Shown here: piece after piece, positions 3,001 through 36,611 of the stretch | Layout of the letters: each line of letters starts with the position of its first letter | Numbering within the stretch: position 1 is the first letter of the stretch | Source: a virus | IMG/VR virus record: IMGVR_UViG_3300025138_000128 | Coordinates: 1-36,611 of that record | Direction: 5' to 3' (one strand) | Length of the DNA: 36,611 bases | Notes under the pieces: generated by a model | Databases searched by the model: none | What the model saw: the letters and a program-made list of their open reading frames with translations, nothing else | Told to the model about the DNA's origin: nothing | Translations under genes and position numbers: made by a program

Positions 3001-6000
3001 CTAAAGAAAATGTAAGTCAGATCTTAAAAAGATTCTTAAATAGAATTCCAAAAAGAAATGAAAAAGGTGGTCGAGTTTATAACATGCATAATCAGCTTAT
3101 TTATGAAGACGGTAATAAAGTTTTTGGGCATCTAATTGGTCAAATTTCTAATAGCTATAGCTACGAAACTATGATAGCAAGGCTAGAAAAAGTTAATAGA
3201 CCCTGGGCAAAAGATATTTTAGAAGAGATAAGTAAATATGATAAAAGTGATACTAGAAATATTGGCCGTAGCTTATGGCTTTCTATAGGAAATAAAAATT
3301 TCTTATACTATTCTACTATTATAAAAGAGAATGGGGTATTCAAAAGAATGGGTACTAACAGAAATACTTTAGACAATATTATAAAAGATAAAATTCTTGC
3401 AGAGTTTTTAAACACAGATAATATTTTATTTAAAACAGAAGCAGGTAAAAATTGGAAAGAAAATATTGTAGAAGAAGCTGCTCAAGATTTTTTTAAAGAT
3501 ATGATCAGAATTAGTGAATCATTAAAAGAACTAAATAGTCAATTTAAAAGTACTGATCCTGCAGTAGTAAAACAAGTACCATTAATACTCGAAGCTATAC
3601 AAAAAAATCCAGAAAGTCTTTTATCAGAGAAACATAAACAAAAAGGAAAAGAGGACCAATTACAACGTGTTGTAGATTATAAATTATTAAATTTTAAAAA
3701 TTTATCTAAAAGTCTTAATAAATATAATATAGAATTAAGCCCTACTCAACTTGAAAATATTTATAATCCTAATTTAAAAAATCCTCAAAATAGTGTAGAA
3801 AATTTACAAAAATTAATTAGTGTTTTAGTAGAACTTTCTGCAGGATTATCTGGAGGAAGATATAAAAGAACAAGAAGTACTGAAACTAGAGCTTTTGAAT
3901 ATAATGAAGTTTTTGATAGAATTCCTAGAAATCCATTTTTAAGTAAAGAAAAACAAGAGTTAACAGAAGAAGAAATTGAAAAAGGTGCTCAAGAAGTAAG
4001 TAATAAAGCAGATAATGATCTTTTAAATTCTTTAGCAGCAGCTATGGAGCCTGGTTTAGCTAGTGAAGGGTTATTTGCTTTTAGAAACATGGATGGCAAA
4101 ACTATTTATGCTTTAATTTATTCTGGCCAAATAAACAAAATGCTAGAACAAATAAAAGATCCTGAAGAATTTCAAAAGATTTTAGATAAAACAGGTACAC
4201 TAGATAATTTTGTAAAGCAATTGCCTCTTGTTCAAGAATTATTAGATCCTGATTCAGAAATGAATGAAACAGGTCGTAATTATATGAAATTAACTATTCT
4301 CGACGGAATGCGGGAAGAAAGAAAATCTCAAGGAGTTGTATACAGCAGGATGAGTGATCAAGAATTATTTGGTACTCAGATAGGTATGTATATAAATAAC
4401 CAAAGTAAAATTAAATCTGAAGGTTTTAAAGCAGGAAGGCCTTCTTATTTTAAATTAGGAATTGCTTCTGACTCTCCTAATATACATTTTATTAATGCTC
4501 CTTCATTAGAGAAAAAAGCTATTATAGATAAATTAGTTCAAACAGCTAGAGCTGAACATTCAAGAATTTTAAAAGTTCAAAATCTAGAAAAAAACTTTGC
4601 AGAAAGTAAAAAAGATGCTGTACAAAATGAATTGTTAAGAATTCCTAATTACGTTAAAAACGGTAAGAAATGGCAAACTCTTAGCTTCTTAAACAACAGT
4701 GAGGTAGGTATTGCTACTATGAAAAATGGCTTTAATGAAGCAGGTATAAGAGAGGCTATAGAAGAATTTCTTACAGAGGATGTAACAAAAGAAGGAGGAT
4801 TTTTTAACAAACAATTTACAGAGCTAAAAGAAAAAGGTATTATTAAAAGCATTGCAGATAACGGTGATGTATTATTTAATTCAGGAATTATAGACACTCG
4901 AATTACTAGCTCTAGTAAAATAAATAATACAGAATTTCTAAAAGGATATTTGCTAAATCAATTTTATTATAACACTCAATTAAATACTTTATTTGGAGGA
5001 GACATTTCTTTTTATAAAGGAACTGTAGATGCACAAAAACGTTTTAAGCAACTATTTAGTCCTGGTACATATACTCTAGGTGAAGGTAATATGGATGCAG
5101 TTATTTTAGATGATATAGAAGAATTGACAGAAGAAAAAACTTTAGAAGTTATTGATTCTATAATAGAAGATTCTAATCTAACTGATGGAGAAAAAAGATT
5201 AACTAAAGAAGTTTGGAAACAAAAACATAATATTACTGATGCTGCTACAATATTAAGTCTTAGAAGACGTAAAGAAATTTTAGAAGACTTAGATAGATGG
5301 ACCCCAGAAATGGAAGAGTCATATAAAAGAATTGAAAGAGGAGAAGATACATTAGAAGATTTCCATACTGTAAATAGCAATCCTTTTGCATCTCCAGCAA
5401 AACCATTCTTTTATACTGTAAGAAATATTAATGGAACAAGAGTTCCTTTACAAATTAAAAATGCAGAGTTTGTTCCTACTCCCGCATTTGCTTTACAAAA
5501 AGAAGGAGATGCTTACAAGTACCCAAAACTAGCAGCTTTATATCTAGATCTTAATGGAGGTAAAAATTTAAAAGGACAAGAAGTACAGCCTAAGTTTGAT
5601 GTAGCTATGTTTGCAACAGCTGTTAAGGTAGGCGCAGTAGCCAACAATGTTACAATTGATAATAAAGGAGACTATAAATATACTTTTAATTCTTATCAAG
5701 AAGTTGATGGTGAGTTTAAAATAAACGAAGGATTTAATGTTATACAAATAGATAAAGCAGATTATAGATCACAGCAAGAAACTCCGCCTCACTTTATAGA
5801 CGACAGATCTAACTTTAGTACACAAACAAGAAATATTATAATTCAAGATTTAGATCCTAATCCAGATAATAAATATGATTTAAGTAACGGAGATTTAAGA
5901 TCTGGAGAAGAAACTGCAATGTTGTTTCAAGAAATAGTTTCTAATGATTTAGAAAGAGATTATAATAAAATAAGAGACGAGTTTTTGTTAGCTAATGGAG

Positions 6001-34544: not shown

Positions 34545-34629
34545 GTGCTAAGACAGGATTCGAACCTGCAACTTACTATAGGAAATCATACTAACCTTAG
34601 TATGTTTTTCCATTTTAAACTACTTAGCT
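34545..34629 (-). tRNA. tRNA-like gene with enlarged anticodon loop (identity unassigned)
   Basis: On the - strand the 85-base element has a standard T arm (GCAGG-TTCGAAT-CCTGT) and U8-A9. It has a 4-bp D stem (GTTT/AAAC) with a GG-containing loop, and a 6-bp acceptor (GCTAAG/CTTAGC) with a mismatched A-A at the end pair. The best canonical layout puts the anticodon stem as TACTA/TAGTA and leaves a 4-base variable loop. The anticodon loop is then 19 bases, 12 more than normal. Other foldings give 6- or 8-base loops. CCA is not encoded. It may be a decaying tRNA, a tRNA-like regulatory RNA, or a tRNA with an insert. No anticodon can be assigned. Confidence 0.55.
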
Positions 34630-35275: not shown

Positions 35276-35869
35276 TTAAGGTTTAAATCTAAAATGTTCT
35301 AAGTTGTTTTCATCATAATATACATCAGCTATAACAGGACCTTCTCCAATATTGTGAGCACAATAATATCTATTAGTTCCTGGAACTTTTTCGTCAATAA
35401 GTATACCAATATGCCAATTATCCCAGAATATTATATCTCCTGGTTTAAAAGAGTCATTTTGTCCTAATTCTGATTCAGGATAGTGTAGTTTAAAGAATTT
35501 TTTTAATATTCTTACACGTCTGTGATCTATATTAGCATCAGGATGCAATCCATATCCTTTTAAAGGATTAGGATAATAATACTTATGATGTTTCTTTACA
35601 GATTCATGTACAAGTACTTGTAAATCTACATTAACATATCTATAAGCTCTGATAATAACATCAGTACACACACCTATATCAGCAGGAACATCACCATTGG
35701 GATAGTCAATGATACGATAACTACCGTCATAAGTCACATCTTGTGTAGTCTGCCATTTAGCATGATATATAACTTTATCAATAAAATTATAATCAGGCAT
35801 TTTTTTATTAGATTGGGAATGAGTCATAAGACCCACTCCCATCATTACTATAAGCAATAAATTTTTCAT
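35276..35869 (-). CDS. secreted DUF1287-family protein, NlpC/P60-like peptidoglycan hydrolase candidate
   Basis: The N-terminus (MKNLLLIVMMGVGLMTHSQS) is a cleavable signal peptide. The mature protein carries the DUF1287 signature: YPNGDVPADIGVCTDVIIRAY (C68), DLQVLVHES, NIDHRRVRILKKFF, FKPGDIIFWD, HIGIL (H153) and HNIGEGP (H172). DUF1287 is related to NlpC/P60-type cysteine hydrolases, with the Cys and His as likely catalytic residues. A secreted cell-wall enzyme is a good candidate for the phage endolysin or for an envelope-modifying enzyme. It sits among small membrane and lipoprotein genes on the - strand. The cell-wall role is inferred from the family. Confidence 0.8.
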   Translation of the reverse strand: MKNLLLIVMMGVGLMTHSQSNKKMPDYNFIDKVIYHAKWQTTQDVTYDGSYRIIDYPNGDVPADIGVCTDVIIRAYRYVNVDLQVLVHESVKKHHKYYYPNPLKGYGLHPDANIDHRRVRILKKFFKLHYPESELGQNDSFKPGDIIFWDNWHIGILIDEKVPGTNRYYCAHNIGEGPVIADVYYDENNLEHFRFKP

Positions 35870-35871
35870 AA

Positions 35872-36126
35872 CTATTTGTTTTTAGTTAAATCTTCAGGAT
35901 ATACAAGCTTACCGTCTATATAACGAATAGCTTCATTGTATTCAAAATCTCCTGATTCAATATATTCAAGTATTTCTTCTTGATAACAGTGTTCAAATAC
36001 AAATAATTTTTCTGTATCATGATTTACTACATAAAGATAGTATAAATCTCTGTCATCATTTTGTTCATTCATAGGTTCAACAAAGCCCATACCTATGAGA
36101 TGGGCGAAAATAATTTTAAGTAACAT
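35872..36126 (-). CDS. hypothetical protein, 84 aa
   Basis: Small acidic protein. The first 18 residues (MLLKIIFAHLIGMGFVEP) are hydrophobic and could be a signal-like segment, or the true start could be the Met at residue 19 (36072). The leader before 36126 (TTAATTAAAACCAAAAACC) resembles those of other genes, so I kept it. The rest (LYYLYVVNHDTEKLFVFEHC) is strand-like with an acidic end. No family recognised. It lies 2 bases before the DUF1287 gene. Confidence 0.55.
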   Translation of the reverse strand: MLLKIIFAHLIGMGFVEPMNEQNDDRDLYYLYVVNHDTEKLFVFEHCYQEEILEYIESGDFEYNEAIRYIDGKLVYPEDLTKNK

Positions 36127-36158
36127 GGTTTTTGGTTTTAATTAATAAATAAAATGCA

Positions 36159-36223
36159 AGCAGTGTCAAAGGTTACGGTACTGAGCTTTCCATAAGTACT
36201 AACGTTCTTGTAACCTATGTGCT
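36159..36223 (-). ncRNA. structured untranslated element A (three nested stems)
   Basis: AGCA/TGCT (36159-36162 with 36220-36223), AGGTTAC/GTAACCT (36170-36176 with 36210-36216) and GTACT/AGTAC (36178-36182 with 36195-36199) form three nested stems in a 109-bp gap without genes. It lies between the small membrane protein gene and the 84-aa gene. It shares GCACATA and an AAAG-CTC segment, in the same order, with element B further right. It may be a leader RNA, attenuator or small RNA. Confidence 0.45.
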
Positions 36224-36235
36224 AAGAAAGGACTA

Positions 36236-36466
36236 TTAAACTCTTCTTATTGAATGACGATCTGCTTGCAATGTTTTAATCTTTTTTTTGTCTATTTTTT
36301 TATCTATGGCTCTGACAGTTCTTCCTATGTCTATTAAGTCATTGGTTATATGATGTTGTCTTTTATTAAGATCTTCCCAATAGTATTCTTGATTCCATTT
36401 TATAAGGACAAGAATAATAAGATTTATTAGTGATATTCCAGTTATTATTAATATTGCTGTAATCAT
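36236..36466 (-). CDS. small membrane protein, 76 aa
   Basis: The ATG at 36466 gives a product beginning MITAILIITGISLINLIILV, one strong transmembrane helix, followed by a charged helical tail (YYWEDLNKRQHHI, then Lys-rich KKIDKKKIKTL). The longer frame from 36541 would translate the structured element B and is rejected. A TTAAAACAAAAAAA leader precedes the ATG. One N-terminal helix with a long charged coil is seen in spanin- or holin-like accessory proteins, but no family is recognised. Confidence 0.58.
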   Translation of the reverse strand: MITAILIITGISLINLIILVLIKWNQEYYWEDLNKRQHHITNDLIDIGRTVRAIDKKIDKKKIKTLQADRHSIRRV

Positions 36467-36492
36467 TTTTTTTGTTTTAAGTAAATAAAATA

Positions 36493-36578
36493 AACAAGGT
36501 GCGCTAGATGTCTTAGTAGGAGTCTTTACGTACTGCCGCATCTTATGTGCGTTGACTTACATACCACCATACCTTGTT
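36493..36578 (-). ncRNA. structured untranslated element B (nested stems)
   Basis: AACAAGGT/ACCTTGTT (36493-36500 with 36571-36578, 8 bp) encloses GCGC/GTGC (36501-36504 with 36547-36550), AGATG/CATCT (36506-36510 with 36539-36543) and AGTA/TACT (36515-36518 with 36531-36534). It lies upstream of the 76-aa membrane protein gene. Its inner part aligns with element A (GCACATA, then a stem, then AAAGACTC), with different stem sequences that still pair. The window ends soon after, with another small hairpin CACTG/CAGTG (36594-36608). Confidence 0.45.
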
Positions 36579-36611
36579 AGTCTGCTTAACATCACTGACT
36601 TTACAGTGCCC

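Follow-up and report, generated by a model that had tools for sequence, protein, structure and literature searches.

The right end of the DNA analysed here, a 36.6-kb stretch that makes up one entire record of a viral collection and is referred to below as the window, carries two elements, A and B, on either side of a small membrane-protein gene, and the question raised by this locus is what these elements are and whether they belong together. The window encodes a family A DNA polymerase, a primase, DnaB-like and SF2 helicases and a spore photoproduct lyase family protein, and its opposite strand contains two very large open reading frames (3171 and 1508 aa). One of the closest sequenced matches to its polymerase, that of crAss-like phage cr111_1, is 41% identical over the full length, and the window is taken to be a fragment of a crAss-like phage. 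A close relative of 88 kb (G001) was retrieved whole. The features at the right end are arranged as follows.

36593 to 36608, minus strand: hairpin CACTG-TAAAGT-CAGTG just before B, seen directly.
36493 to 36578, minus strand: element B, a member of the motif described below and the sole confident match to model R1 in the window (31 bits, E 3.7e-6).
36572 to 36578, minus strand: 5' strand of the P1 stem of B, AACAAGG, pairing with 36493-36499; P1 pairs covary in the family.
36519 to 36568, minus strand: P2 helix of B, GG/CC (36567-36568 with 36519-36520), with a 46-nt insert holding GCACATA and AGATG.
36500 to 36518, minus strand: invariant core of B, UACUAA-G-ACAUCUAGCG-C-A, in which N1 is the G at 36512 and N2 the C at 36501.
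36493 to 36499, minus strand: 3' strand of the P1 stem of B, CCTTGTT, likewise backed by covariation.
36236 to 36466, minus strand: small membrane-protein gene between B and A, 77 aa from the ATG at 36466.
36155 to 36270, minus strand: element A, a long hairpin with an outer stem (36262-36270 with 36155-36163) and an inner one (36210-36215 with 36171-36176).
35872 to 36126, minus strand: 84-aa gene after element A; its homologue in the relative L015 directly follows a B element.

The initial annotation of this region viewed A and B as twins of one conserved RNA shape whose stems differ by compensating changes. All the letters that it quoted, namely GCACATA, the AGGTTAC/GTAACC and AGATG/CATCT stems, AGTA and AAAG(A)CTC, do occur on the minus strand. 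The claimed kinship fails, as the best local alignment between the two elements extends over 11 columns and is at chance level, being equalled or bettered by 473 of 2,000 dinucleotide shuffles when A and B are delimited as in that annotation and by 957 of 2,000 when the full elements are used. Although the words GCACATA, AGTA and AAAG(A)CTC are common to both elements in the same order, they fall in parts not kept by relatives (most of them sit in the middle of B, which G001 does not keep although it retains the outer parts of A and B), A is without the core of B, and the model of B's family finds no match in A even with filters off and E values up to 10, so that two copies of one repeated RNA family can hardly be entertained and the notion of a related pair is, judged by sequence, wrong.

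Element A folds at -27.8 kcal/mol. The coordinates first assigned to it leave out the outer stem TGCAAGCAG/CTGCTTGCA, a 9-bp helix that is its strongest. This stem, which overlaps the end of the membrane-protein gene, is kept in G001 and in a second relative (L310), and the inner GGTTAC/GTAACC domain is missing in the latter. Pattern searches specific for A recovered, beyond chance hits, only these two relatives, and covariation cannot be scored from three sequences whose outer stem is identical. As far as the letters can tell, A is a conserved hairpin, separate from B and found only in close relatives. The proposal that structured RNA adjoins the small membrane-protein gene was borne out; a longer version of that reading frame, starting from 36541, would traverse B. 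The element immediately upstream of the 84-aa gene varies within the crAss-like group, being A in the window, B in L015 and a third leader in L039, and in G001 an additional tiny open reading frame separates A from this gene. The hairpin just before B has the counterpart CTCTG-TAAAGT-CAGGG in L015, in which pairing is kept, with two stem versions only.

The advice to build a covariance model and to search related phages proved fruitful for B, because it revealed the family to which B belongs. More viral contigs were reached through GACATCTAGCGCACCTTGTT, the conserved 3' half of B, and two crAss-like relatives found via their polymerase (L019 and L050) contain GUAUGG...CCUACUAA-N-ACAUCUAGCG-N-AC within quite different stems. 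A scan for CTAANACATYTAGCGNAC returned 102 viral stretches, and among bacterial and archaeal genome contigs 33 stretches matched, with the partner strand and P1 present only in L199, a contig binned as Gemmatimonadetes. Viral and genome contigs yielded 101 distinct hits in all; in 45 of these TATGG occurs upstream and P1 reaches 4 bp or more, with one of the 45 (L133) being a chance hit. The final set comprises 39 members, distinct in P1 and core, from public viral contigs. The motif has the layout P1 stem - GUAU - P2 hairpin - UACUAA-N1-ACAUCUAGCG-N2-AC - P1', that is, three helices, of which P1 (the closing stem) and P2 (a hairpin) are variable and P3 is a single pair (N1:N2) closing the invariant loop ACAUCUAGCG, and its invariant nucleotides are located at the junction of these helices. 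Element B conforms to this layout as AACAAGG-UAU-GG...CC-UACUAA-G-ACAUCUAGCG-C-A-CCUUGUU.

The structure is carried by covariation. An alignment (A2) and model R1 were built from 21 members with short inserts, and the core is invariant in all 21. The covariation score of 0.754 was reached by none of 500 shuffles (mean 0.201) and fell to 0.15-0.24 in a control in which one strand was slid; four of five summary measures lay above all 500 shuffles. Since the 21 members had been picked for at least four P1 pairs, the P1 count was redone on all 39 with a 5' anchor that required only GUAU and two P2 pairs and that could be placed without ambiguity in each member. Standard pairs occur at P1 positions 0 to 5 in 39, 39, 36, 37, 33 and 30 of the 39 members, respectively, with many pair types and few G-U pairs; P1 thus differs in nearly every phage and its pairing is kept. 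The N1:N2 pair, which played no part in member selection, is Watson-Crick in 39 of 39 (CG 19, GC 16, UA 4), and among raw pattern hits it is Watson-Crick in 44 of 48 with a preceding TA versus 11 of 43 without it. The identity of P2 varies as well, its GG:CC pairs being replaced in L101, L105 and L122, and its insert measures 8-50 nt and falls into two size classes; G001 and L015 have an insert of a different type from that of B, and L039 a diverged version of it. We also observed, at about position 7232 of L265, a sequence with GCAU...GGC instead of GUAU...GAC, in which the U:A pair beside P1 becomes C:G, and which is a possible variant of the motif.

These results uphold the idea of a conserved RNA shape for B and at the same time overturn the particular structure that had been drawn for it. 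The CATCT of the supposed AGATG-CATCT pairing is part of the invariant core ACAUCUAGCG, and both AGATG and GCACATA belong to an insert that relatives have in different form. Folding energies no better than those of shuffled sequences, named in the initial annotation as evidence against structure, were indeed found for both elements (z of -0.31 for B and +0.77 for A), yet B is structured by covariation, and folding energies are a poor guide for it because its conserved core is mostly unpaired. The 11-nt GAAA tetraloop receptor has the sequence UAUGG/CCUAAG. The motif resembles it in placing UAUGG opposite CCUA, and it differs in that the strand opposite is CCUACUAA and the GG:CC pairs are not fixed, and identity with this receptor was rejected.

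Model R1 gives one match per record in 34 records of up to 157 kb, of which 33 are convincing; the match in the largest of them, G034 (L132, 23 bits), was discarded as a chance hit since it has G-T at N1:N2 and lacks the GUAUGG strand. In the window, the 31 bits of B are followed by a next best score of 13 bits, which is noise. With B's model matching only B and a single copy in each record, the suggestion of a small-RNA family repeated within the phage has to be dropped, and the motif is instead common to phages. Across 80 polymerase-bearing crAss-like loci, some of them too short to include the site, R1 scores fall into two groups, 34-74 bits and noise below 15, and the motif is found in seven. 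No model of Rfam 15 (4,227 models, permissive limits) matches over the motif at the window end or in 12 further whole member loci. Consensus BLAST, by which divergent members could be missed, gave only partial matches in 50,697 sequenced phages (best E about 0.5) and no match in a plasmid collection. A distant DNA search of the window end against sequenced phages likewise gave no match, and the motif is not described in the papers that we found. Having neither an Rfam family nor a consensus match in the sequenced-phage collection, the motif is missed by standard annotation. Element B is almost certainly a member of an uncatalogued family of structured phage RNAs with the structure given above.

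How the motif sits among genes bears on what it might do. In the members examined it lies between genes, and the nearest flanking genes are on the same strand in 141 cases versus 13, a bias that points to an RNA rather than a DNA site; the few G-U pairs in P1 would by themselves not favour RNA. Many members are situated 15-60 nt upstream of the next start codon, and part of them lie more than 100 nt from it. The downstream genes are unrelated, ranging from primase (L121, L166) and primase-helicase (L102, L164) to small unknown proteins and tiny open reading frames. An upstream open reading frame, with the AUG in UAUGG and UAC UAA supplying an in-frame stop, was considered and rejected, given that the frame is not kept and L101 has no AUG. 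Complementarity of the loop to flanking mRNA was at chance level.

Intercistronic hairpins that stabilise or process the transcript occur in phage mRNAs, for example in those of T4-like phages, and the motif can be compared with them at homologous sites. Eighty loci with an L121-type primase provide 32 distinct stop-to-start gaps ahead of the primase gene, with a mean hairpin z of -4.4 over all 32. Three gaps hold the motif (L321 and L324) or a disturbed copy of it (L323), and of the remaining 29 gaps 28 hold a very stable hairpin (z < -1.5). At this boundary P1 is placed between the stop and start codons and replaces the plain hairpins. The motif is therefore like intercistronic phage hairpins in having its stem between the stop and start codons of co-transcribed genes, where it occupies such a hairpin's place, and unlike them in that its tip is not a simple loop, but an invariant core of about 20 nt with a covarying pair of its own. 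A second boundary holds the motif in L164, the motif nested in another module in L102, and other hairpins in L136 and L160; a third holds the motif in L145 and L103 and, in L099, the same module that encloses it in L102. This other module, AATAACTGGTCC...AAAGGAATATGTGAG, is present in six of the fetched loci (L099, L102, L124, L136, L160 and L185), and in three of them (L102, L124 and L136) the motif is nested inside it.

Several further observations concern these boundaries. The disturbed copy in L323, TATTAAGATAGATCTAGACAACTAGCGCACC, occupies a gap of 71 nt ahead of the primase gene, which starts at 3001, and has the flanks of an intact copy (L324); it may have decayed, or its P3 loop may be enlarged. 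A similar stem at the primase boundary carries still other folded modules, which recur in L326, L328 and L329 (e.g. TTCAAGCATTAATAAGCACGTGCGTCC), in L339 and L353, and in L342 and L350. The module that encloses the motif in L102, L124 and L136 is itself a second conserved structured module; it consists of a closing stem, CAATAACTGGTCCT...AAAGGAATATGTGAG and the other strand of the closing stem, and has no match in Rfam where scanned. The gene preceding the L121-type primase has no family match and may, judging from its acidic tail and its position, encode a single-stranded DNA-binding protein.

Starting from a family observed with its structure, strand, single copy and swapping at homologous sites, the most likely explanation is that the motif is a swappable RNA domain carried on intercistronic mRNA stems, with a putative factor-binding site that would serve mRNA processing or expression. 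The motif would be transcribed as part of the operon and would cap an intercistronic stem; this stem would mark the gene boundary, with the motif working in cis on the mRNA; the invariant core would be recognised by a putative conserved factor, probably a protein and less likely a small molecule; and binding of this factor may alter processing, stability or expression of the mRNA across the boundary. A mere hairpin would not suffice, because the core is too strict, and a core of about 20 nt kept across phage groups with stems rebuilt each time usually signifies a defined binding or chemical function. What counts against the mechanism is that the downstream genes are unrelated and some start codons distant, which leaves an effect on the next gene putative. 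We advance a cis-acting boundary element with a factor-recognised core tentatively, as something rather below an even chance, and family, structure and mechanism taken as one statement are likewise somewhat less likely than not. What is new is the RNA family; its core could turn out to be an ordinary protein-binding cap.

Among the alternatives, the one that survives best is that B belongs to a new class of small self-cleaving ribozymes and would cut the polycistronic phage mRNA at gene boundaries or beside tRNA-like genes. A ribozyme would fit a three-helix junction whose stems vary freely while about 20 nucleotides, most of them unpaired, are invariant, and it would fit the sporadic, single-copy and gene-independent placement. 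A tRNA-like sequence immediately precedes the motif in L124 and L160 (seen directly), and theta ribozymes, minimal HDV-like ribozymes of gut phages, often stand behind tRNAs in the same way (PMC10879173). The motif and theta ribozymes (PMC10879173) are alike as small structured phage RNAs of scattered placement, sometimes beside tRNAs; the motif has another core, its covarying helices form a three-helix junction, and no HDV-like Rfam model, nor that of any other known ribozyme, matches it. Moreover, ARAGORN calls neither the L124 nor the L160 sequence a tRNA, none of 43 distinct core hits is permuted (permutation being common in some ribozyme classes, not required), and plain hairpins, which cannot cleave, replace the motif at homologous sites. 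We consider self-cleavage unlikely. The broader proposition that B either stands for such a new catalytic class or is the most frequent of a set of nestable RNA modules that phages exchange at mRNA gene boundaries is somewhat less unlikely, though still well below even.

The single gene-like copy, the want of a common neighbour gene, the sporadic occurrence among relatives and the nesting in another RNA module in three of six cases would also be expected of a trans-acting RNA, such as a decoy or sponge against a host factor or defence system, that travels as mRNA cargo and is putatively processed out. The motif often lies close upstream of a start codon and inside operons, and neither a promoter nor a terminator of its own could be made out, and a trans-acting role is unlikely as well. 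A riboswitch-type aptamer acting on the next gene, for which the compact conserved core, the variable P1 and the leader position might speak, is quite improbable, disfavoured as it is by downstream genes that range from primase to unrelated tiny open reading frames, with no shared expression platform seen and no match to an Rfam riboswitch.

The swapping of folded modules at one boundary suggests that RNA parts are exchanged among phages in a manner akin to protein domains, and the 39 members and model R1 make the motif directly testable in vitro. It is comparable to the candidate RNAs of the human microbiome (PMC8040213) as an orphan conserved RNA structure, some of those candidates being near phage genes; the motif, for its part, comes from viral contigs and is absent from Rfam 15.

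The surroundings of the locus offer a few more observations. Just past the right end of the window, relatives have long non-coding stretches among tiny open reading frames (L003, 11250-12450, minus strand; L310; and L039, about 3100-3640), which contain several stem-closed elements including hairpins like the T-arm of tRNA, and in which no Rfam family other than tRNA was found. Within the window, a DUF1287 protein (Pfam PF06940, E 1.2e-42) is encoded at 35276-35869 on the minus strand, in an early small-gene operon of the crAss-like phage. A tRNA of unassigned type with an odd anticodon call ('gg') is located at 34545-34629 on the minus strand; it is also present in G001 and L039 and could be a non-standard or decoding-altered tRNA.
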